This document shows, in pieces, positions 112-31,659 of a stretch of 47,901 bases of DNA (position 1 is its first letter; every line of letters starts with the position of its first letter). The stretch is taken from NCBI GenBank assembly GCA_013375495.1, contig JABXKC010000030.1, forward strand, positions 1 through 47,901, read 5' to 3'. The position numbers and the translations under genes were made by a program. A model generated the notes under the pieces. It searched no databases and was not told where the DNA came from. It saw only the letters and a list, made by a program, of their open reading frames with translations. Origin of the DNA: Promethearchaeota archaeon (GTDB lineage Archaea; Asgardarchaeota; Lokiarchaeia; Sigynarchaeales; SOKP01).

Positions 112-1227
112 ATGACTGAATCAGAGTCTCAGAAACTTTTGCAAAATGAAGTAAAAACATTTGAAGATCTTGAAAATGAAATAATTAAAAGTAATAAATG
201 CTGTGCTTGTGGAGCTTGCATAGCATATTGCGAAAGTCAACATTTTAATGTTATTGAGATGAATAGATATATCCCTGGCTTTAAATCAGAAAAAAGTGTT
301 GATAATTGTACTAAATGTGGGGTTTGTTATTATATTTGCCCTCAAACTAAAGCATTATTAAAAGAATTAAATGAGACTTATTATATTGAAGATAATGTTG
401 GACATATAGCTAAAATTCTTGCAGCTAAAACAACAAACTCTGCATTAGAAAAAGTTGGACAAGATGGAGGGATAGTTTCAACAATTATAACATATTTATT
501 TGAAAGAGGTAAAATTGATGCAGCTATTGTTTCAGAATTTGACCAAAATTTTGAACCCGTTCCAAAAATTATATTTGATAAAGAAGATTTATTGAAATCA
601 GCAGGTACACGTTATTCTATTTCTTCTCAAATATTCCCTTTAAAAAATTTATATAGCATACCGCAAGAGATTCTTATGAAAAAGGAGATATTTGATATTA
701 ACCAGCTAAGAATAGCTTTTATTGGAACTCCGTGCCAATGTAGGGCTGTTAGTAAAATGAAATTTTTGCATGTTAAACCAGCTCACGTCATTAAATATGT
801 TATAGGTCTTTTCTGTTTTGAGAATTTTGTTTATACCCAATTGTATAATATTTTAAAGAGAGAAACCAACATTGATCCTACTAAAATCAAGAAAACATGG
901 ATAAAAAAGAATTTTTTTATCCAAACCAGAGATAATAAAGAATTTGAAATCGATATCAAAACTCTAGATCCCGCAGTTAGAGATAATTGCCATGAATGCG
1001 ATGAATTCACAGGAAGATTTACAGATATTAGTGTTGGAGCATCTGGAGCTCCAGAAGGATATTCAATGATACTAATTAGAACAGATATTGGTGAAAAAGT
1101 AATAAATAGTATGCTTTCAAAAGGTATAATTGAGCAATTTATTGTTCCATTAAACACTATTGAGTGGAAGAATAAGAAATTAGATTGGTATAATAAATTA
1201 ATTTCTATAAAACAAGAAATAAACTAA
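112..1227 (+). CDS. FrhB-like iron-sulfur flavoprotein (F420 hydrogenase/dehydrogenase beta subunit family)
   Basis: This 371-residue protein has the FrhB/FdhB-type architecture. An N-terminal double [4Fe-4S] ferredoxin region has Cys at 30, 33, 36, 40 and at 66, 69, 72, 76. The FrhB N and C domains follow, with a QDGGIVST segment near 117, GTPCQC at 205-210, GLFCFENF at 232-239 and a Cys pair at 293/296. In the family this subunit binds FAD and exchanges electrons between iron-sulfur partners and F420 or another soluble carrier. The carrier cannot be read from sequence. It is a diverged paralogue of the protein at 3535-4677 and converges on the hdrA operon, so both probably serve HdrA-type complexes. 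The ATG start follows an AGAGAGAA stretch. Family assignment is firm; the substrate is inferred. Confidence 0.88.
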   Translation: MTESESQKLLQNEVKTFEDLENEIIKSNKCCACGACIAYCESQHFNVIEMNRYIPGFKSEKSVDNCTKCGVCYYICPQTKALLKELNETYYIEDNVGHIAKILAAKTTNSALEKVGQDGGIVSTIITYLFERGKIDAAIVSEFDQNFEPVPKIIFDKEDLLKSAGTRYSISSQIFPLKNLYSIPQEILMKKEIFDINQLRIAFIGTPCQCRAVSKMKFLHVKPAHVIKYVIGLFCFENFVYTQLYNILKRETNIDPTKIKKTWIKKNFFIQTRDNKEFEIDIKTLDPAVRDNCHECDEFTGRFTDISVGASGAPEGYSMILIRTDIGEKVINSMLSKGIIEQFIVPLNTIEWKNKKLDWYNKLISIKQEIN

Positions 1228-1295
1228 TTAATTAACAAATCTTAAACAAGCCACTTTAGACATTTTTAATTTAAAAAAATTAAAACAAAAAAAGA

Positions 1296-1327
1296 TATCC
1301 ATTCAAATAAATTAATATGAATGGATA
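1296..1327. repeat. 10-bp inverted repeat between convergent genes
   Basis: TATCCATTCA at 1296-1305 is perfectly complementary to TGAATGGATA at 1318-1327, with a 12-base loop. It lies in the 205-base convergent gap between the upstream FrhB-like gene and hdrA, so both transcripts could form the hairpin. It could serve as a bidirectional 3'-end structure. Its arms contain ATTCA/TGAAT in the reverse order of the operator motif found elsewhere in the window, so it is not that operator. Confidence 0.45.
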
Positions 1328-1361
1328 AAATAAATTCAAATCATCTATTATTTTATATTTT

Positions 1362-1432
1362 TCTGAAAACCTATGCTATAGGTTAGTTACCTCTCAACTA
1401 TAATTTTTTTAAGAGGATCATTCGCTTTCAGA
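1362..1432 (-). promoter_or_regulatory. Candidate SECIS-like RNA structure in the hdrA 3' UTR
   Basis: The structure starts directly after the hdrA TAA stop on the minus strand. An outer stem pairs TCTGAAAG with TTTTCAGA. Inside it, CCTCTTAA pairs with TTGAGAGG (8 bp, one G-U pair) around an A-rich 11-base loop. An AATGAT sequence sits immediately 5' of that helix. A second small hairpin, CCTAT-AGC-ATAGG, follows. A UGA at the helix base and an A-rich apical loop recall the eukaryote-like SECIS elements reported for Lokiarchaeota. However, the 3' strand reads TAAC rather than the expected GA, so the kink-turn match is incomplete. Assignment rests mainly on the upstream gene needing UGA recoding. 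Confidence 0.5.
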
Positions 1433-3469
1433 TTAATTATGATTAGGTGCTAAAGCTTCAACTTTTTTCCAAATAAGTTCAATTGATTCAATATACTCCT
1501 CCTTGTATTCAAGGTCAGTACTACAAATCCCTTTAATTTCTTCAATAATTTGTTTATCACGATAATATTTAAGATCAATTGCACGAGCAGGACAAGAAGA
1601 AACACAAACACCACAACCTTTACACTTCATACCATCTACTTCAGCAATTGCATCTCCGTTGACTTTTATAGCGTTATAGTTACAGAGTTTTTCGCACCTA
1701 CGACAGCCCATACAGAGACTATCGTCAATTTCAACTATCATTAATTGTTGAATAATTGTGTCTTTCGAAAGCAACGTAGCAACCTTACTTGCGGCCGCCA
1801 AAGCTGTTGAGACTGAAGATGGTATGTTTTTTGGGCCGGAAGCGCATCCACATATATAAACGCCCATATTAGTTGTCTCCTGAGGTTTTAAACATCCATG
1901 TATCTCAGTTAAAAACCCATAATTGTCTTTACTCAAGCCTAATATTTCAATTAATTTTGCTGAACTTTTAGAAGGAACCATGCCGGTTGAAAGAACAACT
2001 AAATCAGCATTCAGTTTAACAATATGATTAGAGAGCGTATCAGAAGCTGTAAGTATTAATGTATTCGTTTTATGATCTTTTTGAATATCTCCTACCTTTC
2101 CCCTAATTGTTAAAACGCCCGCTTCTCTTACTTTTCTGTAGTATTCTTCGTTACCTTTATCCCATGTGCGCATATCGATATAAAATATAACAATTTCTAT
2201 ATCAGGATATTCCTGTTTTAACAGTTGAGCGTTTTTAAGAGCAACACTACAGCATACTACAGAACAATATGGATTTCCTTTTAACGATCTTGAACCTACA
2301 CATTGAATCATAGCAACTATTTTTGGCTTTTTTCCGTCAGATATTCTGTAAAGATGACCTCCTGTGGGCCCAATAGGGCTTAACATGCGTTCTAGCTCAA
2401 TTTGAGTTATTACATCAGGATAAATACCGTATTTATAATCGTTACGTTTCATAATCGGGTACTCTTCCCAACCGGTAGAGGCAATTACTGCCCCAACTTT
2501 AAAATCAAGATATTCTGGTTGTTGGTCAAACTCAATTGCTTCGGCAGGACAAATTCTCTGACAACTATTGCATTCAATACAGACATTCCTGTCTATTGTA
2601 GCGAGTTTAGGTACAGATTGTGGAAAAGGTATGTAAATTGCACCCCTTTCGCCAATTCCCCTGTTAAATTCGTTAGGTACTTTGATAGGACAATTTTCCG
2701 CACATAACCCGCAACCTGTACATTTTGATTCGTTCACATAGCGTGGATTCTTCTTCACCTTTATATTAAAATTCCCCGCAATACCACTAAATTCAACAAT
2801 TTCGCTATAGGTAAGTAAGGTTATATTGGGATGTTTCGATGTGCTTACCATAATTGGTGCTAAAACTCATATACCACAATCGTCTGTAGGGTAGATTCTG
2901 TCTAATTGTGCCATCTTTCCTCCAATCGTAGCTTCTTTTTCGACAAGATAAACAGGTGTACCTTGATTTGCTAAGTCTAAAGCAGCATTCATTCCTGCTA
3001 TCCCCGCACCGACTACTAAAGTAGCTTTCCTCACCGATATCTCCTTATAAGGCACTATTTCTAACTGGCGAGCTCGATTTATTCCTCCTATTACCATTCT
3101 TATCGCTTTTTCTGTGGCATTTTTTATATCGTTCTGGTGCACAAAGGAACATTGCTCGCGAATATTTACCATTTGAAAATAATAAGGGCTCAATTCAGCT
3201 TCGATCAACACAGCTCGGTAAGTAGATTCGTGGATTTTAGGAGTACATGCCGCAACAACGATTCGATTTAAATTTAACTCTAAAATATCATCTTTAATAA
3301 TATTCTGTCCTGGATCACTACAAGTGAAATTATTTACTCTCGCAATTTCTACATCTGGAAGCATCTCAACAATTTCTCTTACAATATCGCAATCAACACT
3401 ATTAGCAATATTAACTCCTCATCTGCAGATATAAACACCAATTCTAACATTGATCTGTAAATCAGACAT
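1433..3469 (-). CDS. hdrA: Heterodisulfide reductase subunit A, probable selenoprotein with two in-frame UGA codons
   Basis: Read through two UGA codons, this is a full-length 678-residue HdrA, the FAD- and iron-sulfur-containing core of electron-bifurcating heterodisulfide reductase complexes in the cytoplasm. The ATG at 3467-3469 has a perfect AGGTGA Shine-Dalgarno 5 bases upstream. UGA 1 is residue 17 in the N-terminal ICRxGVNIA motif, where HdrA has CxCG. UGA 2 is residue 201 in DDCGIxVLAP, where methanogen HdrA has CSMCILAP. The Rossmann motif GAGIAG is at 154-159. Ferredoxin Cys are at 250, 253, 256, 260 and 297, 300, 303, 307. The special cluster Cys are at 390, 402, 406, 407, and two more ferredoxin motifs lie at the C-terminus. 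There is no frame change at either UGA and similarity continues across both. It follows an frhB-like gene by 65 bases. Standard gene calling would split it in two. Confidence 0.92.
2867..2869 (-). other. UGA recoded as selenocysteine (Sec201 of HdrA)
   Basis: The codon is tca on the plus strand, UGA in the message. It falls in YPTDDCGI-U-VLAPIM, aligning with the second Cys of the HdrA motif FPTLDCSMCILAP. As I recall, this is the position (Cys197 in Methanothermococcus/Methanothermobacter numbering) that is Sec in selenium-using methanogens. The four cluster Cys downstream keep the same small numbering offset, which supports the alignment. Confidence 0.9.
3419..3421 (-). other. UGA recoded as selenocysteine (Sec17 of HdrA)
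   Basis: The UGA falls in GVYICR-U-GVNIA at the HdrA N-terminus, where homologues have GVYVCHCGVNIG. The ATG and its AGGTGA ribosome site lie upstream of it, and no start with a good ribosome site exists between this UGA and the conserved sequence that follows. Recoding is therefore the simplest reading. Confidence 0.85.
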
Positions 3470-3534
3470 TTAATTCACCTTTTAACGCATCACCATATAG
3501 GTTTTGGCATCAATACTAAAATTTATTTTAATTT

Positions 3535-4677
3535 TTAAACATTAGATTTAATTTCTTTTAAATTTCTTAATTTAGATTCCATGAATTTCTCTTTTCGCTC
3601 GATTTTTGAAATTGAATATTCCAAAAGAAGATTTTTAATGCGTTTTTCTGTTGGAGAATCGATTTCTGAGTTAATAAAAATTCCTTGTTTCAGAGCTTCT
3701 CCTATTAATTTATGCCCTTTTTTCGTTCTTGTGAATACTGTAGTGAATTTATCTGGAGAACCCAGACCTCCAAATGACACATCCGCATATATATTTGTAA
3801 AATCACTACACGCATTACAAGCTTCTCGCATATAGCCTATCAAATCCTCAAAAGGGATATGAACTAAAGACTCTTTGTTTTTATCTCCCTTTAGCTGTAT
3901 AATAAGGTCTTCTTTAATCTTAATTTTTTTGATATCCTCGAATTTAATGTTAAACTTTCTTTCAAACTGCTCCATTTTATGTTGGTCAAATTCGAAATTC
4001 TCGTAACAAAATAATCCTAAACAAAATTCTATGTTTTGTGAAGGAATAATGCCAAGATTCTGCATACACCTAATCGTATAAATTTGGCAGGGAGTTCCGA
4101 CCACTGCTAACTTTTTAAACTTTGTACTGCTTATCTTAGGAAGCGCACTTGTGTATGAGTGGTACCTTTGAACTTCTTCTAATTGCTGGGAAACCCCTAA
4201 TTTAAGCCCCGATGCACTAATTAAATCTTCTTTGTTTTTGGCAAGATAAGGCTCTCTCGAGAAAGGAGCTTTTGTTTTTGCCACAATGGCTCCGTCTATT
4301 AATTTCTCTTCAAACATGAAATTAAGTAGGGCGTTAACGACCCCCCCGTCAGTTCCATGACGCAAAAAGTCGAAATCTACTGATTGGCACGAATAGAGAT
4401 CAAAAATATTACCAAGGGGCATTGATGAATAATCTAATAAATTAAAGGTTCTATTGAGTTCGTCATCTAAAACATGAGTTTGTGGGCATAAATGATAACA
4501 AATTCCGCATTTAAGACAATTTTCTTTATTAATAAATACTGGAGGAGAATTCAGCTCCTTATACCCTATTACATCGTAATCCATTGAGTTACAAAAACTT
4601 ACACAACCTCCACATTGCTGACAAATTCCTTTGTTATGGACTTCTTCTATCAAATCCTCAAAACTTTTAACTTTCAT
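3535..4677 (-). CDS. FrhB-like iron-sulfur flavoprotein, upstream partner of HdrA
   Basis: This 380-residue FrhB/FdhB-type protein has a double ferredoxin region (Cys 19, 22, 25, 29 and 54, 57, 60, 64), a TDGGVV segment, GTPCQ, GLFCYENF and a CNAC pair before the C-terminal ADVSFGG motif. The family carries FAD and moves electrons to or from a soluble carrier such as F420. It is the first gene of a two-gene unit with hdrA, 65 bases apart on the minus strand, which suggests an HdrA-FrhB type complex. The ATG is preceded by GAGGTGTGAT, a close match to the anti-Shine-Dalgarno complement. It resembles the plus-strand gene at 112-1227 across its length. F420 as the carrier is inferred, not shown. 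Confidence 0.88.
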   Translation of the reverse strand: MKVKSFEDLIEEVHNKGICQQCGGCVSFCNSMDYDVIGYKELNSPPVFINKENCLKCGICYHLCPQTHVLDDELNRTFNLLDYSSMPLGNIFDLYSCQSVDFDFLRHGTDGGVVNALLNFMFEEKLIDGAIVAKTKAPFSREPYLAKNKEDLISASGLKLGVSQQLEEVQRYHSYTSALPKISSTKFKKLAVVGTPCQIYTIRCMQNLGIIPSQNIEFCLGLFCYENFEFDQHKMEQFERKFNIKFEDIKKIKIKEDLIIQLKGDKNKESLVHIPFEDLIGYMREACNACSDFTNIYADVSFGGLGSPDKFTTVFTRTKKGHKLIGEALKQGIFINSEIDSPTEKRIKNLLLEYSISKIERKEKFMESKLRNLKEIKSNV

Positions 4678-8924: not shown

Positions 8925-10589
8925 TTAAGAGATCTTTCTCAATGTTTCATTATTGATGGTTATATTGTAAGAATCGTAGAAATTGGAATAATATTTTTGG
9001 TAAAAAGCTTCTTTTTTTGCTAAAATAGATTTAGTGTCTTCTTTTTCTGGTTTACCAGAAGCCCAAAAGATTTTACCCGAATTATGTAGATTAATTTTAC
9101 TATGATCTTTTATTATTTCACCGGCTTTAATTACAAAATCGATATTAGCAAGAGAATGATTGAATTTCTCATACTCTTTTGAAATGTCAGTATCATTTAA
9201 ATTCAAATTTAGAATGTTGAGGTCTCCGTCAGCTCCTAAACCTAAGTTCCCTTTAATATCGCCAATACCAAGTGATTTGGCAGGGCTCGATCGAGCTAGA
9301 ATTGCAAATTCGTTAAATGTCAGTTCCTTATCATTACTATTGAGAGAATTATCCTTTAGAAAGCCAGTATCCATATCGTTCATAAATTTTTTGCGGGCAT
9401 CATTACTTATTAACCAACTGGCGATTTCGGGAAGGGTTCTAATATCGGCATAGTTTGGGTAGTTTACTGAAAGTTGTAGTTGCCACGGTGATATTTTTAA
9501 CGCTAATTCGATTGCGTTAGCCCACATTACGCAGTCATCTTTTATTTTTTTATTGAATTTTCTTAGGGTTGCAAACGAATCTCCTTCAGATTCTACTGAA
9601 GATCGAATGAGTCTATTAGGGTTTGTTATGTTAGTTAGCTTGTTTATAAGATGCCGATCGGAGGTAATCAAAGGATTTAGTGCGTCAAAACCTACAAATC
9701 CCAAATCCATGTCAAAATCTTGATTCTCGTTATAAAATTTAATCAACTCAGAGTTATCCCCGTCTATATTATAACTTGAACCATGCGCAAGATGAAATAT
9801 TTGAGATCGCTTTATTTCAAAATCATTTTTTGGATTGGGTTTTAACCCAAGAGATTTCACTTTATTCAAGGTTGCGAGTAAGTTTTCTTTAGAATGTTGG
9901 GACTCGTACCCTTCAATATGAGCGTGAATAGAATGAGGTAACCCTAAATGCTCTACAAATCTTGGAAGTTTTTCATACACGTCCATAGGAGTGAAGTTGA
10001 ATAACCTCCCTCTTTCTGATACGTTTTTTCTAACAACTTTCCAATTCCAATACTCTGCTTCGAAGGGGTTGTAGGCTTTCAAACCAAAACCTTTAACTTT
10101 CTCTAGAAGATTTGATAAGAAAACAGCACCTTCTTCAACCATTTTTTTTTGATACTCAAGTTCTAGAGCCCATAAATTGCTAGGATTTAATAAGAAAGCT
10201 TTATCTAATACGGGCAATCGTTGTAAGTCAAACATCGTTTGTTTCGCTAGTGATGGAAAAACATTTGCTTCAAGAATAAAAGTATATCCGTTTGAAATGT
10301 AATTTTTAGCAATAGTATTTAAAGCCAAGCCATTCCAAAGATTCTGAAAATCCTGGTTATCAGAGCCTAATAATCGAACCCAGTTAAGTTGTTGAGACGC
10401 TATGTGAGCGTGAATTTCTACTGCTGCTGGAACGACAGTTTTTCCCTTTGCGTCTATTTCTTTGATATCGTTGCTACTCGTGAATTTATCTACAATTTTA
10501 CCGTCTTCAATTAAAATGTCCTTTGGTTCGCCTTCAATTTTATTAAAGGGATCGAAAACAAAACCATTTTTTACAATAAGTTTGCTCAT
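8925..10589 (-). CDS. fwdA: Formylmethanofuran dehydrogenase subunit A (amidohydrolase subunit), altered metal motif
   Basis: FwdA (554 residues) is the subunit that condenses formate with methanofuran, or hydrolyses formyl-methanofuran in reverse, in the first step of the archaeal Wood-Ljungdahl pathway. Amidohydrolase features are visible: EIHAHI (His60, His62), GLKAYNPFE with Lys171 at the expected carboxylated-lysine position, IHAHIEG (His222, His224) and HLAHG (His266, His269). The conserved TDHPNGG motif that supplies the metal-binding/catalytic Asp appears here as VNYPNYA (Asn376, Tyr377). It is the last gene of a G-like/B/D/A operon and starts 1 base after fwdD ends. The family is certain. 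Whether it keeps the normal hydrolase chemistry is open. Confidence 0.9.
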   Translation of the reverse strand: MSKLIVKNGFVFDPFNKIEGEPKDILIEDGKIVDKFTSSNDIKEIDAKGKTVVPAAVEIHAHIASQQLNWVRLLGSDNQDFQNLWNGLALNTIAKNYISNGYTFILEANVFPSLAKQTMFDLQRLPVLDKAFLLNPSNLWALELEYQKKMVEEGAVFLSNLLEKVKGFGLKAYNPFEAEYWNWKVVRKNVSERGRLFNFTPMDVYEKLPRFVEHLGLPHSIHAHIEGYESQHSKENLLATLNKVKSLGLKPNPKNDFEIKRSQIFHLAHGSSYNIDGDNSELIKFYNENQDFDMDLGFVGFDALNPLITSDRHLINKLTNITNPNRLIRSSVESEGDSFATLRKFNKKIKDDCVMWANAIELALKISPWQLQLSVNYPNYADIRTLPEIASWLISNDARKKFMNDMDTGFLKDNSLNSNDKELTFNEFAILARSSPAKSLGIGDIKGNLGLGADGDLNILNLNLNDTDISKEYEKFNHSLANIDFVIKAGEIIKDHSKINLHNSGKIFWASGKPEKEDTKSILAKKEAFYQKYYSNFYDSYNITINNETLRKIS

Positions 10590-10590
10590 C

Positions 10591-10968
10591 TTATTTCTTC
10601 ACCACGAGTTTTTGCATAATTTCTTCAAATTTTGTTATCGGATCGCGCGTAGCCTCCACATCTACAAGGATATTTTTATAGAGAATATCATCATTTTGAA
10701 CCACAGACAACTGGTTTGACCATATAGAAACGGGCATAGCAACTGTGCCTTCCGGAATGTTTTCATCCTTCTCAACTCTAACTACTACATTTTTCCCTTT
10801 ATTTGATATTTTTAATTGTAAGCTTGAGACTAAATTTAGTTTTTCGAAATCTTGAGGATTAAGAAAACCAACGGCTACTTTCTCTTCTAAAGATTGTACC
10901 GTCCCAAACGCATGCTCTTTTGCTTGATCGTTGTCAATTTTTCTTATAGAATTTAATATAAATTCCAA
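10591..10968 (-). CDS. fwdD: Formylmethanofuran dehydrogenase subunit D
   Basis: This 125-residue protein matches FwdD, the molybdopterin-dinucleotide-binding domain that completes the FwdB catalytic subunit. Motifs include the N-terminal strand MEFILNSIRKI, GFLNPQDFEKL, and MPVSIWSNQL, which corresponds to the MPxSPWAN stretch in the family. It lies between fwdB and fwdA with 1-base gaps on each side, so translation is probably coupled. The C-terminal TRDPITKFEEIMQ is typical of archaeal FwdD. The cofactor would be a tungsten or molybdenum pterin; the sequence does not say which. Confidence 0.88.
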   Translation of the reverse strand: MEFILNSIRKIDNDQAKEHAFGTVQSLEEKVAVGFLNPQDFEKLNLVSSLQLKISNKGKNVVVRVEKDENIPEGTVAMPVSIWSNQLSVVQNDDILYKNILVDVEATRDPITKFEEIMQKLVVKK

Positions 10969-10969
10969 G

Positions 10970-12277
10970 CTATTTCAAACCTCCTTGATGTAATAATTCA
11001 TAAAGTTTAGAAAGTAATTTCTCGTCGGAAGGAAGGTTATTTGGAGCATTTATTATCTTTTGAAACTCAATAGGCACGTGATCAAGGCGATACGCCATTC
11101 CCCCGCTTTCGATTCCCGTTATAGATGTGGGCAATACTACTTCAGCTATGTGAGAAGTAGCTGTGCTATGATTATCTATGAGTATTAGTGGTTTTTTTAC
11201 CATTTTAGAGCTTAATGATTGGGGCAAATGAGCGATAGGATCAGTTCCAACGATTATTGAACTATCGAAGTCGTCTTTTTTGATTTTAGAGATTATCGTA
11301 TCTTCTGTATTGATTACTTGATTGTTCTTAAACTCTATCTTACCAAAAGCTCCATAACCCGAAAGCGCTACGTGGTCGAATCCTGCCATGTTAAAATGAC
11401 CTCCCATCAAAAGCAGCGAAATCCGTCCTTTTACCTGTCTTTCGTTTATCATTTGAATTAATTCTAGTAATTCTTCTACTAGATCGTAATCAGGATGGGG
11501 TTGAATAACTCCTTGACCAAGAATTATTACTCCGTTTTCAGCACCAGTAAGATGGAGTAATAGGCGCTTAAGATCGCTTTGGTCTAACCCTGCAACACCT
11601 TTAGATGGAATACTATTTGCAGAACAACATTCCTCTTTTAATATGCGAATAAGATCAATGTCCTTATTTGGTTCTATAATCAAAGGGAGGTCTCTGACGC
11701 CCATTACTCTAAAGGATGCCGATTTTATAGGGTCGATAATTACTAATGTTTTAATTTCTCTTCCTGTCATACGAAATTTGCCTCGAGAAAAGAGAACTTT
11801 ATTTAATAAGCGAGGAATCGTCTCTGCTGGATTAGCACCCCATAAAATAATTAAATCTCCTTTATTAATAATTTCTGTAATCGTTGTCAGGTTTATACCT
11901 AAGTTTTTTGCTTTTTTTAAGAACTTTCCTTGACAGATTGAAGCGTTTGAATCGATGAATCCATTAATTTCTTGTGCTAATTTCATTCCAGCTTCTTGAG
12001 CTTCACAGGTTACATTCGAAAAACCATATAATAGTGGATTAGAAGAGTTTTTAATGATCTCTATAGCTTTTTTGTAAGCTTCGTCCCAAGATACTTGCTT
12101 TAATTCTCCATCTTTTCTAATCATTGGGTTAGTAATTCTATTTTTAGCGCTTACCTGATCAAACCGTTCTTTTCCTTTTAAACAAGCACCAATAACTTCA
12201 GTTACAAACAAACCGTCGCTTTTAACAATAATATCGTCACATAATAGCGAACAACCCGAACAAGTAAACCTTTTCAT
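10970..12277 (-). CDS. fwdB: Formylmethanofuran dehydrogenase subunit B (molybdopterin/tungstopterin catalytic subunit)
   Basis: FwdB (435 residues) reduces CO2 to formate at a pterin-bound W or Mo site. The N-terminal [4Fe-4S] motif uses Cys6, Cys9, Cys13 and Cys32 (TCSGCSLLCDD). The active-site ligand is Cys115 in NASICQGK, a plain UGC/UGU Cys and not UGA, so this is not the selenium form seen in some methanogens. ILWGANPAET and the C-terminal VLPTS-ESGGMAYRLDHVPI are diagnostic. It lies 35 bases after the ferredoxin-like gene and directly before fwdD. No fwdC homologue is present in the window, so the complex must take FwdC from another locus or lack it. Confidence 0.92.
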   Translation of the reverse strand: MKRFTCSGCSLLCDDIIVKSDGLFVTEVIGACLKGKERFDQVSAKNRITNPMIRKDGELKQVSWDEAYKKAIEIIKNSSNPLLYGFSNVTCEAQEAGMKLAQEINGFIDSNASICQGKFLKKAKNLGINLTTITEIINKGDLIILWGANPAETIPRLLNKVLFSRGKFRMTGREIKTLVIIDPIKSASFRVMGVRDLPLIIEPNKDIDLIRILKEECCSANSIPSKGVAGLDQSDLKRLLLHLTGAENGVIILGQGVIQPHPDYDLVEELLELIQMINERQVKGRISLLLMGGHFNMAGFDHVALSGYGAFGKIEFKNNQVINTEDTIISKIKKDDFDSSIIVGTDPIAHLPQSLSSKMVKKPLILIDNHSTATSHIAEVVLPTSITGIESGGMAYRLDHVPIEFQKIINAPNNLPSDEKLLSKLYELLHQGGLK

Positions 12278-12312
12278 AACGAATTCCTCAATAAATTTTC
12301 ATATTTCAAAAA

Positions 12313-12780
12313 TTAAACATATTCAATTTTAACGGCCTCGCGAGGGCAGTAAGTTTCACAAACGCGACACTCCCTCTCTCTTCCCCCCGCTTCCAACCTT
12401 CTGCAGTGTTCAATTTTTAACAATTCACATTTTCCTCCTATAACCTGAAAAAGTTGGTGTTCCTCAGGAGGATATTCTGGTGCTTTACCACTTAAACTAG
12501 ATGGACAATATCGTGCATTTACAGGGCAAACTGTAACACAAATACCACAACCATCGCAGAGATCCTCGTCTATGTTTATTTTTAGCTCCTTTTGTTGCCC
12601 CTCCTCCGAACCAAGAATCTCTTTTAATGCATCGTATTGTTTTTTATACTTTGGCTCTAAAAGCGGAGGGCAATCGTCAATTTTAACTTTGCCCTTTAAT
12701 AAATCCAAACTAAACGCCATGCATGTGGGTTTCCCGCACTTCTTACAATTAGTTTTCGGTAAAAATTTGTATAATTCCAT
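12313..12780 (-). CDS. Polyferredoxin-like Fwd partner (4Fe-4S domain fused to dicluster ferredoxin)
   Basis: This 155-residue iron-sulfur protein probably delivers electrons to FwdB. An N-terminal domain, LPKTNCKKCGKPTCMAF followed by Cys38, is the CxxCxxxxC type four-cysteine cluster domain known from CODH/ACS gamma subunits. A ferredoxin unit, LCDGCGICVTVCP, follows, and a second Cys set, CRVCETYCP, with Cys in the linker completes it. It is the first gene of the fwd operon and resembles FwdG-type ferredoxins, but with the extra N-terminal domain. The domain combination suggests fusion of two electron-transfer modules. The role is inferred from position. Confidence 0.75.
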   Translation of the reverse strand: MELYKFLPKTNCKKCGKPTCMAFSLDLLKGKVKIDDCPPLLEPKYKKQYDALKEILGSEEGQQKELKINIDEDLCDGCGICVTVCPVNARYCPSSLSGKAPEYPPEEHQLFQVIGGKCELLKIEHCRRLEAGGRERECRVCETYCPREAVKIEYV

Positions 12781-13006: not shown

Positions 13007-14434
13007 ATGCAAGTTAAAATACTTGAAGATCATCAAATTGAGAAAATTCATCTAAAAACGCTTGAGATTCTTGAAAAAACGGGCGTTAATGTTCCCCACG
13101 AAGAAATCTTATCAAAATTTTTAAGTTACGGTGCAATTGTAGACACTACAAATAATCTCGTAAAAATTCCATCTGATTTAGTCATGGAGCTCCTCTCTCA
13201 AGCCGGAAAAGCCTTCACTATGTACGGTCGTGATCTCTCTAAAAAAGCCGAATTCGGGGCAGGGAAGCGAAATTATAATTCTTCAGCGGGTCAAGCGTTC
13301 TGGATTGACAAAGTTGGGGATCCACGCAGGCATACAACTCTTGAGGATGTTCAGAAGGCTACAAGACTCGGTGATGCTTTAGAACAAATAACAATACCCG
13401 GAGCCATGGCAGATCCGCTTGAAATCCCTCTCGAATGGCGTTGTATCCAGGTAGCTTTAGAAATGTTGAAAAACACTGATAAACCGATCGCTTTTTGGTT
13501 TAACGACAGGCGATCTGCGAAATATCTTATGGATCTACTTGTAGCTCTTAGAGGGGATGAGAAAAACGCTCAGAAATACCCGTTATTCTACCCTCTTTTT
13601 GAGCCTATAAGTCCCTTAAGCTTTCCTTTCAACGGGATTGACTTACTTTTTGAGACGGCTCGACTTAATTTGCCTGTACACATCGGCCCGATGGCTCAAA
13701 TGGGCGTTTCTGCGCCCGCTACAGTTGCTGGGACTTTGGCTCAAGAAAACGCTGAAATTTTGGCTGCTATTTGCATTACTCAGCTTATCCGCGAGGGAAT
13801 GCCCGTGTGTTACGGTGGAATTTGTCACGCTTTTGATATGAAGACCGCACAAATTATCTTTGGAGGTCCTGAACAGGCAATATTTTCGATCGCGATGAGT
13901 CAGATAGGAAAATTTTACGGATTTCCGGTTTACATTAACGCTGGACTGACGGATTCTAAAAAACCAGATGCTCAAGCTGGGCTTGAGAGTGGAATTACGT
14001 TATCGTTAGGAATTGCTTCTGGAGCGGATATATTTGGGCACATGGGTATCTGTGGAATGGATCAAGGCACATCCCTGGACATGCTGATCATGCAATCAGA
14101 GATTATTTCGTACTTAGAAAGTGCTAATAGAGAAATCAACTTCGACGATGATACTTTTGCTACAGATCTCATTAGCGATGTTGGACCTAAAGGAACCTTT
14201 TTGAACAAACTACACACGGTTAAAAACATAAGAAAGGAGTTATGGTTTCCCACTCTCTTGGATCGGAGAAATTACGACAATTGGTTAAAATCGGATTCTC
14301 CTGGCATGGAAAAGCGGTGTCACAATCGCAAAGAAGAGCTTCTTGCGCAACACGAAACAACGCCTTTAGATGTTGACGTGAAAAAAGAGCTTGAAAAATT
14401 AGTTGATGTTGCTAAAAAAAATCTTTCCAAATAA
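13007..14434 (+). CDS. MttB-family corrinoid methyltransferase, non-pyrrolysine type
   Basis: This 475-residue member of the trimethylamine methyltransferase superfamily transfers a methyl group from a quaternary or methylated amine to a corrinoid protein. The N-terminal DHQIEKIHLKTLEILEKTGV, central GPMAQMGVSAPATVAGTLAQ and C-terminal GASGADIFGHMG-type segments are characteristic. True trimethylamine methyltransferase has pyrrolysine encoded by an in-frame UAG; this gene is continuous with no amber codon. It therefore belongs with the non-Pyl group, some of whose members demethylate glycine betaine, carnitine or proline betaine. No corrinoid protein or reactivase gene is next to it. It is followed within about 50 bases by a PIG-L deacetylase and then a GPH transporter, perhaps one uptake-and-use unit. 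The substrate is unknown. Confidence 0.85.
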   Translation: MQVKILEDHQIEKIHLKTLEILEKTGVNVPHEEILSKFLSYGAIVDTTNNLVKIPSDLVMELLSQAGKAFTMYGRDLSKKAEFGAGKRNYNSSAGQAFWIDKVGDPRRHTTLEDVQKATRLGDALEQITIPGAMADPLEIPLEWRCIQVALEMLKNTDKPIAFWFNDRRSAKYLMDLLVALRGDEKNAQKYPLFYPLFEPISPLSFPFNGIDLLFETARLNLPVHIGPMAQMGVSAPATVAGTLAQENAEILAAICITQLIREGMPVCYGGICHAFDMKTAQIIFGGPEQAIFSIAMSQIGKFYGFPVYINAGLTDSKKPDAQAGLESGITLSLGIASGADIFGHMGICGMDQGTSLDMLIMQSEIISYLESANREINFDDDTFATDLISDVGPKGTFLNKLHTVKNIRKELWFPTLLDRRNYDNWLKSDSPGMEKRCHNRKEELLAQHETTPLDVDVKKELEKLVDVAKKNLSK

Positions 14435-29259: not shown

Positions 29260-31659
29260 CTAAAAATTGTTTTCTAATCTATCTATAATATCGTTTTGAA
29301 TTGGAAGTCCCAAATCAACGAAAGTAGCGTTATAGCCCCCAACTTTAACAATTAAATCAGTGTAATTCTCGGGATGAATCTGCGCGTCCTTTAAAGTCTC
29401 AGTTGAAACCACATTCGGCTGAATCTGCATCCCACCTTTTTCAAAATAGGTCTTTAACAAGTGATAAAACTTTTCGATATTTTCTTGAGTTTCTAAGTTT
29501 TGAGGATGTAATCGTACATTAACAGCTACTCCATTCATAGCATGTTCGTAATTTAATTTTGCGATTGAATTGAGTGTTGCGGTGATTCCTTTTTTTTCAA
29601 CTCTATTGACGGGAGATAGACTATTTGAAATAGGTCTTCCTGCTTTTCTACCATCAGCAGTAGGTCGAGTTAACATCCCTTCCATAACGTGGATGCCCAT
29701 TGAATAAGCTCCGGCATTATAGTTTCCTCCTCTTAAAGGTTGATACTTGCTTACTTCTTTCGTAAATAAATCCCATAATTCATTAGCAAAAGAGTCAATC
29801 TCAGTAGCATCGTTTCCCCACTTTTCGTAATTATTAATTAATTTTTGGCGATAAACTTCATTCTCTTCAAAGTTTGAGTTAAGAATCTCTATAAAATCGG
29901 GTAAACTCATGAATTTTTCTTCGTATACGGATTTTTTAATGTTATACATAGAATCGACTAAAGTAGCAAATCCATATGCAGTTATAGAAGAAAAGTTATA
30001 TTTAGCGCCCCCACAAACGTAATCCTTTCCGCTTTCCAAGCATCCTTCAAGTGTAGCAGAGACAAACGGGTGTTGAAAATAGTTCATGACTTCTCTATCT
30101 CCTACTTCGGCGATTTTAACACATTTTTCAATGTTAAATTTGAGTTGACGAGTAAACGCGTCGTAAAATTGATCGTATGTAGCAAAATCTTCCGGAATTC
30201 CAGTCTCTAATCCGTCAGTACTTTCAGAAAAGTTGCTATAGCCATTATTCAAGATTAATTCCAGCACACCGGGTAAATTCATAAACATTCGACCTGTAGC
30301 TGAAAAACTGTTTCCTTGCCCTGTGGGTTCTACACATCCGATTATGACATAATGACGCGCATCTTCTAGAGAATAACCTGTATCGTGAAGAGCCGGAACG
30401 ATAATTTCGTCGTTATAAAACGCAATACCTGAAGTGTGCTTAAAAACTTTAATCGCATCCTCGAAAAATTGTTTAGGGGTGTTATTATGAATTCGTACAG
30501 AAAGATCAGTTGTAAACAATTTCACATTCTTATACGCTTCAAGAAAAAGAAAAGATAATTCGTTAGTTGCGTCGTTACCTCCCGAATCCACCCCTCCTAT
30601 TGTAATAGTCTGTGTGTTCTGACCGAGAGCGTTGGCTACTAAAGTAAAATCGTTAGGTAATATCGTTACATTCCAGGTTAGTTTAAGGTTTAATTCTTCG
30701 ATTAATTCTAACGCATTTTCTCTGTCAATCATACCGTTTTCAAGATCCTTCACATAGTAAGCCCATAGAATCTGATCTAAGCGACCAAGAGCTACAACGC
30801 TCCGCTGATAAGTGATGTTTATGATATTCTGAGTAAACCATATGAATTGAACTGCTTCGTAAAATGTATCTGGAACCGATTTAGTAAATTTATTCATCAT
30901 ATCTCCGATATCTTTAAGCTCTCTTTTTCGTTGTTCATCTCTTTCAATTTCTGCCATTTCAAGAGAAAGAATTGAAAAACGAAGTAAAAAATCTATAGCT
31001 GCTCTATAATAGATTTTAACAGCCTCGTAGAAATTATATTTGACTTGAAATTCTTTATCAGATTTATCTAACTTGGATTGATACGCTTCAGTTTCTTCGA
31101 TTATACCACTATACCCAAGATTTAACAGTTTTTCATAACCGGCACATAAATGACCTTCCGTTGTTCCAACTTGAACGGAAACATTTGGAGCTAACGAAGG
31201 TATTTGACCTTCTCCCCTGATAAGGTTTGCTTTTAATAATTTCTTATTAATTCGACTGTCTATTAGTGATTTTCCTTTCCAAAAAGGAATAATGTCGAGT
31301 AACTCGTTGATGTCATTTTCTTCGATAATAAACGGTTGAACTTTTCTTCTTCGCAGTTTCTTATAGGTCGTTCTTTTCTCTAAGATGTTATCGTAGCAAT
31401 GTAGATCAAGGTTGAGTTTTTCGCCTAAATTTTTACTAGTTTCGTTTCCTACCAGTAATTCGTCGTTTCTAATAAAGATAGTCATATTTTCCAGCGTGTG
31501 TGCTATAGCTTTTGCTTTTTTAATGATCTCGGGATCGTCTGGAAATTGTTTATATATTTCAGTGAAGTATCTCATACGCTCAATACACAATTCGTACTTA
31601 CTTGATAGCATATCACTTTTGAGATTAAATATCCGGTTGGAAGAGGTTTCAACAGTCAA
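29260..31659 (-). CDS. Glycyl-radical enzyme (dehydratase/lyase type)
   Basis: This 799-residue enzyme belongs to the pyruvate formate-lyase-like glycyl-radical family. The radical Gly lies in VKVGGYNATFVDLG near the C-terminus. The thiyl Cys with its companion Glu is in IGCVEPTGQG, the GCVEP form found in dehydratases and C-N lyases (glycerol or diol dehydratase, choline lyase, HPA decarboxylase) and not the CC pair of pyruvate formate-lyase. N-terminal ERMRYFTEIYKQFPDDPEIIKKAKA and ELLVGNE are typical. The TTG at 31659 is used here; ATG 31611 is the alternative. No activating enzyme is adjacent; the nearest candidate is the radical SAM gene at 39382. The substrate is not deducible from sequence alone. 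Confidence 0.88.
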   Translation of the reverse strand: MTVETSSNRIFNLKSDMLSSKYELCIERMRYFTEIYKQFPDDPEIIKKAKAIAHTLENMTIFIRNDELLVGNETSKNLGEKLNLDLHCYDNILEKRTTYKKLRRRKVQPFIIEENDINELLDIIPFWKGKSLIDSRINKKLLKANLIRGEGQIPSLAPNVSVQVGTTEGHLCAGYEKLLNLGYSGIIEETEAYQSKLDKSDKEFQVKYNFYEAVKIYYRAAIDFLLRFSILSLEMAEIERDEQRKRELKDIGDMMNKFTKSVPDTFYEAVQFIWFTQNIINITYQRSVVALGRLDQILWAYYVKDLENGMIDRENALELIEELNLKLTWNVTILPNDFTLVANALGQNTQTITIGGVDSGGNDATNELSFLFLEAYKNVKLFTTDLSVRIHNNTPKQFFEDAIKVFKHTSGIAFYNDEIIVPALHDTGYSLEDARHYVIIGCVEPTGQGNSFSATGRMFMNLPGVLELILNNGYSNFSESTDGLETGIPEDFATYDQFYDAFTRQLKFNIEKCVKIAEVGDREVMNYFQHPFVSATLEGCLESGKDYVCGGAKYNFSSITAYGFATLVDSMYNIKKSVYEEKFMSLPDFIEILNSNFEENEVYRQKLINNYEKWGNDATEIDSFANELWDLFTKEVSKYQPLRGGNYNAGAYSMGIHVMEGMLTRPTADGRKAGRPISNSLSPVNRVEKKGITATLNSIAKLNYEHAMNGVAVNVRLHPQNLETQENIEKFYHLLKTYFEKGGMQIQPNVVSTETLKDAQIHPENYTDLIVKVGGYNATFVDLGLPIQNDIIDRLENNF

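Follow-up and report, generated by a model that had tools for sequence, protein, structure and literature searches.

Lokiarchaeal HdrA with two conserved in-frame UGA codons, predicted to encode selenocysteine ligands of one iron-sulfur cluster

Electron bifurcation holds a central place in the energy economy of many anaerobes, and selenocysteine (Sec)-containing forms of the bifurcating protein HdrA have already been published for the Methanococcales and Methanopyrales as well as for Asgard archaea (PMC11227280; PMC11097638; PMC9723677). The Sec motif listed for HdrA is CxxU (PMC9312934). Archaeal selenoprotein genes are described as having one or two Sec codons with a single SECIS element (PMC9499178), and two to three Sec residues are ascribed to a small subset of families, with FrhD/VhuD named for multiple Sec, in a 2026 review (PMC13188914). 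The hdrA gene described here resembles the multi-Sec VhuD/FrhD proteins and the multi-Sec selenoproteins of Lokiarchaeota in that several UGA codons likewise appear to be served by one SECIS element. Mariotti et al. reportedly stated in a 2016 abstract that three of the five Loki selenoprotein families have multiple Sec residues. With the Sec-HdrA proteins of methanogens and Asgard archaea, our HdrA shares the family, a predicted Sec at the CxxU site (here residue 201) and a SECIS-like element in the 3' UTR. It differs from them by an additional predicted Sec in an N-terminal CxU motif (residue 17) and by the absence of an adjacent frhD or mvhD gene, and its sister genes reach three to five Sec codons. 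PDB entry 9sfi_A has an X at the equivalent of residue 201 and a cysteine at the equivalent of residue 17, whereas the HdrABC-MvhAGD complex 5odc, which according to its PDB title is from Methanothermococcus thermolithotrophicus, has cysteines at both sites; unlike that system, our locus places FrhB-like genes next to hdrA, and the 650 nt downstream of hdrA contain no mvhD. Another point of comparison is HdrA2 of Methanosarcina acetivorans, for which we know of no Sec. F420H2-dependent bifurcation is documented for the HdrA2B2C2 complex of this organism, and HdrA2 has a fused MvhD domain, which our HdrA lacks (PMC5296606). In the passages of open-licence PMC papers covered by our searches, we found no HdrA with four or five Sec residues and none with several Sec ligands of the N-terminal cluster. 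As Sec-HdrA in Loki is itself already known, the new content is the cluster-ligand reading and the graded Sec series set out below.

The analysed stretch of DNA, referred to here as the window, is 47,901 nucleotides long and carries at positions 1433..3469 of the minus strand a single hdrA frame with two conserved in-frame UGA codons. The frame starts at 3469, ends with TAA at 1433-1435 and comprises 678 codons, including the two Sec-UGA codons; TGA at codons 17 and 201 are the only internal stops. Codon 17 (3419..3421, minus strand), assigned as the first Sec from frame reading and conservation, lies in an N-terminal CxUG motif, and codon 201 (2867..2869, minus strand), the predicted second Sec, in a PTDDCxxU motif. 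The first-pass annotation had placed two in-frame UGAs at these residues, on cysteine positions of HdrA, and both the frame and the codons of homologues bear this out. Sequence homology to HdrA spans almost the full length (9sfi_A, 8.9e-216; 5odc_A, 1.8e-207; residues 8/9-650/648). The protein has the HdrA cysteine pattern of the N-domain and of the inserted and C-terminal ferredoxin domains, four Fer4 stretches and the FAD motif, with GAGIAG in the FAD region. The best NCBIfam match is NF040770 (HdrA2), with 819 bits against a curated cut-off of 1100, and NF041778 (608/1400) and NF041891 (610/1300) are likewise missed, so that the window protein is a divergent HdrA of none of these named types.

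Calling ORFs with table 11 splits hdrA into ORFs of 165 and 472 amino acids. The same split appears in the protein database, where most of the next-ranked matches are fragments of about 470 amino acids beginning just past site 201, as the first-pass annotation had predicted for standard annotation. The top matches (P0002-P0021) are full length or nearly so, and all 20 show tryptophan at both UGA sites, evidently since TGA was translated with another code. A Sec reading would account for the split or mistranslated HdrA entries that databases contain for these organisms. Taken at face value, the tryptophan-containing entries would favour UGA having been reassigned to a sense codon throughout the genome. 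Such a reassignment is scarcely credible, as 5 of the 42 main ORFs picked in the window end with TGA, and as 367 of 369 UGAs in HdrA fall on cysteine columns among the matches listed. Read-through frames of at least 150 amino acids with at least 60 amino acids on each side of a TGA are rare in the window, where only hdrA and a tandem enoyl-CoA hydratase pair qualify, which makes the hdrA frame more than a chance occurrence.

To follow the two codons through relatives, we used the window protein as query in a scan of species-representative genomes, without selection for UGA, which returned 40 loci. Both sites were TGA in 28 of 28 Asgard loci covering them and TGT or TGC in 11 of 11 bacterial homologues; L028, a fragment spanning neither UGA site, stands outside these counts. 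More distant HdrA paralogues within some of these loci have cysteine codons. A census drawn from a search of 227 Asgard genomes comprised 150 HdrA places among the matches listed (one of them represented by L026). In these rows, site 17 was TGA in 134, TGT or TGC in 14 and not covered in 2, and site 201 was TGA in 138 and TGT or TGC in 12. Across covered rows among the matches listed, sites 17, 50, 75, 201, 300 and 303 had only TGA, TGT or TGC, and each of the 26 Cys/Sec columns examined held cysteine or Sec throughout. The 12 rows free of UGA among the matches listed were 44-47% identical to the window protein. UGA thus swaps solely with UGC and UGU at both sites, the exchange that the first-pass annotation had proposed to look for, and no sense codon other than cysteine was found at either site in the covered rows of the matches listed. 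In other words, in-frame UGAs align with cysteines of homologues within conserved flanks, a pattern expected of a selenoprotein gene. The two UGAs of the census off the cysteine columns are at codons 112 (L053, the same gene as L016) and 164 (L119), opposite Q112 and L164 of the query; they may represent a sequencing error, a mutation or a true extra event. HdrA paralogues without internal stops coexist in genomes that also carry UGA-HdrA, a coexistence for which a need for selenium does not account.

Both long segments of the gene seem to be under selection as protein. Compared with L001, which is 94% identical, dN/dS was 0.10 between the two UGAs and 0.12 past the second, and values for both segments against five relatives ranged from 0.05 to 0.14; for four of the five, dS exceeds 1 and the figures are rough. 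Ahead of the first UGA, 15 codons are too few for such a judgement; on both sides of site 201, the ratios show purifying selection at the sequence level. That the gene is a pseudogene, the product of sequencing errors or two separate genes, as the two ORFs from standard ORF calling might suggest, has a negligible chance of being correct in view of this selection and of the presence of the same two codons in many assemblies.

Directly 3' of the hdrA stop, at 1358..1432 on the minus strand, lies a SECIS-like element of three helices and 21 pairs, in which the AUGA core and A-rich apical loop are accompanied by an outer stem and a further small hairpin. Its predicted fold has an energy of -19.1 kcal/mol (z -4.04). 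In an alignment of 15 orphan-hdrA 3' UTRs including the window, from which the structure was also derived, 8 of the 21 pairs show two-sided changes. None of 500 shuffles matched the observed covariation on four of five measures, and slid versions were far worse; on the fifth measure, which counts further pair types, 194 of 500 shuffles reached the observed value. ATGA is invariant in 15 of 15 rows, the loop is rich in A, and so is the 3' side of the core. The element has the AUGA_[G/A]A core and the unpaired A-run in the apical loop of Asgard eSECIS-like elements, with the third helix as an extra, and it agrees with the AUGA_AA cores that PMC11227280 gives for some of the Loki hdrA/frhD genes. 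The Rfam SECIS families gave no match, and a search with Rfam over positions 1000-4000 at E up to 10 returned only an unrelated CRISPR repeat model. One of the orphan loci, L012, has no TAA before the element (near 12025-12060); its hdrA frame enters the element and, past site 201, meets no in-frame stop before the UGA of the AUGA core.

A covariance model, R1, built from the 15 orphan hdrA loci, recognises a SECIS-like element with compensatory changes in the window mRNA as its single strong match there (E 7.8e-19, with the window being part of the training set). R1 matches 33 of 40 other chosen hdrA loci, the two weakest at E 0.06-0.09 and two of the loci (L027 and L110) being the same gene, and gives none in L026, L120, L121, L124, L126, L127 and L130. 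In 33 of the 33 matched loci, R1 begins no more than 15 nt from the stop codon of the ORF that follows hdrA, 409-521 nt past the hdrA stop, and this ORF reads as mvhD with one to three UGAs, a few of which may fall outside the true mvhD. Over 16 whole genomes, 81 matches were obtained with E up to 0.001, and 47 of these have a UGA-HdrA match upstream on the same strand at a distance of 82-493 nt; 24 of 71 UGA-HdrA places taken from these genomes are without an R1 match, at G001:C281 because the contig ends. Behind the genes with five Sec codons, one SECIS element follows five hdrA and two mvhD UGAs, a hint that numerous distant UGAs can be served by a single archaeal SECIS.

The Sec machinery, which the first-pass annotation had proposed to look for in the genome, was searched for in relatives. 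SepSecS scored above its cut-off in 130 of the 227 Asgard genomes overall and in 72 of the 78 with a census UGA-HdrA among the matches listed, and the remaining six (G080, G082, G149, G150, G152 and G159) gave weak, partial or no matches. The hypergeometric value for this co-occurrence, 3e-16, is descriptive because it covers listed places only and ignores shared ancestry. A selD gene above cut-off was present in 15 of 16 genomes, and the best copy in each of the 15 has one TGA; PSTK-like matches (TIGR03574) were full length in 16 of 16 genomes, all below the curated cut-off. Of 14 genomes, 4 had a tRNA-Sec above the gathering score; sub-cut-off matches to this model are uninformative because 14 of 14 control genomes also match, 5 of them over the cut-off. 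In three of the 4 genomes, G003, G005 and G006, tRNA-Sec adjoins SepSecS (75-82 nt). The nearest relative, G001, has SepSecS and selD above their cut-offs, a PSTK match below and no tRNA-Sec that we could find; no tRNA genes were found in the window. A suppressor or near-cognate tRNA could in principle insert cysteine or another amino acid at the UGAs without selenium, and the occurrence of cysteine forms in relatives would be compatible with this. Such decoding is very unlikely, given the covarying SECIS-like element placed behind UGA genes and the SepSecS, selD and tRNA-Sec of relatives.

What could two selenocysteines do in one HdrA? In the gap-free alignment, residue 201 of the window protein corresponds to residue 197 of 5odc_A. 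Cys197 is described as a cross-protomer ligand of the N-terminal iron-sulfur cluster, which the HdrA N-domain binds via its own cysteines together with Cys197 (PMC9012536), and Sec in heterodisulfide reductases is said to ligate iron-sulfur clusters (PMC9499178). The N-domain has four invariant cysteine positions, 15, 17, 50 and 75, as against three ligand places beside Cys197. Among the matches listed, Sec occurs at 17 (134 rows), 50 (30), 75 (52) and 201 (138), less often at 303 (8), 300 (4) and 619 (1), and at none of 198, 390, 402, 406 and 407. Position 15 is cysteine in 148 of the 148 covered rows among the matches listed and Sec in none. The distribution of Sec, frequent at 17, 50, 75 and 201 and never at 15, is most simply that of four ligands of one cluster; by this pattern, 17, 50 and 75 would be N-domain ligands and C15 the non-ligand. 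With U201 at the place of Cys197 and Sec17 at that of an N-domain cysteine, Sec17 and Sec201 probably ligate one shared cluster.

The first-pass annotation had instead read C15 and U17 as a redox pair. Here, too, both UGAs would encode Sec, with C15/U17 forming a selenylsulfide between thiol and selenol and U17 being no cluster ligand. CxU is a possible redox motif, and the invariant C15 would suit such a pair, yet the N-domain is reported to bind a cluster via its cysteines and Cys197 (PMC9012536), and the spread of Sec to the apparent ligand set 50, 75 and 201, sparing 15 among the matches listed, is not what a redox pair would predict. We regard the pair as improbable, if less so than the alternatives that dispense with selenium. 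The two-Sec HdrA of that annotation is supported by the UGA/UGC exchange, the SECIS-like element and the Sec machinery of relatives, and neither of the refuting findings that it had named turned up in the relatives searched; its redox pair is not supported.

We therefore favour, with a probability of roughly 0.78, the reading that the window gene encodes a flavin-based electron-bifurcating HdrA with two Sec residues, both predicted to be ligands of one cluster. The SECIS element would recruit SelB and the Sec-tRNA, and the UGAs about 2.0 and 1.4 kb upstream would then be decoded as Sec. As judged from the alignment to the solved enzyme, Sec201 would cross the HdrA dimer to ligate the N-terminal [4Fe-4S] cluster of the partner, for which Sec17 would be an N-domain ligand, resulting in one cluster with two selenolate ligands. 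The N-terminal cluster belongs to the low-potential branch, the path reported to lead from the bifurcating FAD into the inserted ferredoxin domain, and selenium may tune the potential or stability of this cluster.

The sister proteins extend this picture. Among the matches listed, the census patterns are 17+201 (76 rows), 17+50+75+201 (28), 17+75+201 (17), 17+201+303 (6), 17+75+201+300 (4), 17+50+75+201+303 (2), 17+75+201+619 (1), 201 alone (4, of which 2 lack coverage of site 17) and no Sec (12). Sister HdrAs thus have up to five Sec codons, and genome G001 alone has HdrAs with two, three and four. On a quick LG+G4 tree of 111 rows, which came with long-branch warnings and from which 4 fragments or repeats and 15 duplicates were left out, the minimum numbers of Cys/Sec changes at sites 17, 50, 75, 201, 300 and 303 are 3, 7, 4, 1, 1 and 4, figures that hold for that tree only; one change each at 17 and 201 represents the split from the bacterial outgroup. 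The repeated changes indicate that Sec and cysteine interchange repeatedly. In sister HdrAs with the pattern 17+50+75+201, all four ligands are plausibly Sec. By the usual CxxCxxCxxxC rule, sites 300 and 303 are expected to provide ligands for a single cluster in the inserted ferredoxin domain, which comes next on the same branch. A wider proposal, to which we give somewhat less than an even chance, is that Loki HdrAs have progressively exchanged thiolates for selenolates as ligands of one cross-dimer [4Fe-4S] cluster, two here and three or four in sisters, leading to a cluster held entirely by Sec; that a further Sec (300 or 303) was placed on the next cluster of the low-potential branch; and that one SECIS serves as many as seven UGAs in hdrA and mvhD together. 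If selenium is indeed targeted to one cluster of the low-potential branch, these proteins would offer a natural series of one to five Sec residues for probing the effect of selenium on an iron-sulfur cluster.

The genes around hdrA hint at a likely electron partner. On the quick tree, the window HdrA groups in a set of 18 rows, all with the pattern 17+201, which is nested among hdrA-mvhD loci. An mvhD motif is present in 108 census loci among the matches listed, whereas it was found neither in the window nor in any of the 15 clade census loci with 650 nt downstream. Seven UGA-HdrA loci that are more distant and have full flanks (L120, L121, L123-L127) likewise lack the motif, as do 12 Cys-type loci, several of which have short flanks. 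As read from these sequences, the simplest history would be that mvhD was lost from the lineage of the window and the SECIS element retained. An hdrA without mvhD or frhD is an exception to the statement in PMC11227280 that hdrA and frhD always occur side by side.

An frhB-like gene (3535..4677, minus strand; PF04422/PF04432) encoding an F420-binding protein with a ferredoxin-type domain lies 65 nt upstream of hdrA and is a candidate operon partner. A second frhB-like gene (112..1227, plus strand) is convergent with hdrA, a neighbour kept in 7 of 19 loci examined. Of 19 orphan-type loci examined, 16 have an frhB-like gene in the vicinity of hdrA; it is upstream and on the same strand in L002, L003, L004, L014, L038 and the window, and divergent or convergent in the others. 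The three loci of the 19 in which none was found near hdrA are L001 (the closest relative), L008 and L012, partly because contigs end. From this synteny, we infer that FrhB (F420) is the likely electron partner and may feed electrons to the window HdrA. A Pfam scan of 30 window proteins revealed neither HdrB nor HdrC. A formylmethanofuran dehydrogenase-like cluster (FwdA, FwdD, a FwdB-like and an FeS protein; 8925..12780, minus strand) is associated with hdrA by position only, and an Fwd-like cluster is also near hdrA in L001, L002 and L038. The window also encodes a glycyl-radical (pyruvate formate lyase-like) enzyme at 29260-31659 and a homologue of MTTB-type trimethylamine methyltransferases at 13007-14434, the latter in a frame of 475 amino acids without internal stops.

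The R1 search touched on other possible selenoproteins. Upstream of R1 matches in L210 (G004) and L213 (G125), a read-through protein of about 180 amino acids contains a UU dipeptide from adjacent UGAs, followed by a similar tail, RLD.G.FK...YGK.NE.FAHYF, and a SECIS-like match; it is none of the seven selenoprotein families that PMC11227280 names for Asgard archaea and is a possible new double-Sec protein. In L196-L201, L203-L206 and L211, an R1 match is immediately preceded by small read-through ORFs that contain a hydrophobic stretch and, near the C-terminus, ..GGU.. or a similar motif. They possibly represent a new family of small membrane selenoproteins in Lokiarchaeia, although their likeness past the UGA is short and termination there is possible. 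Upstream of the R1 matches in L202 and L208 lie other small hydrophobic ORFs, with '..VAUGR..' or '..YLAUGRL..'.
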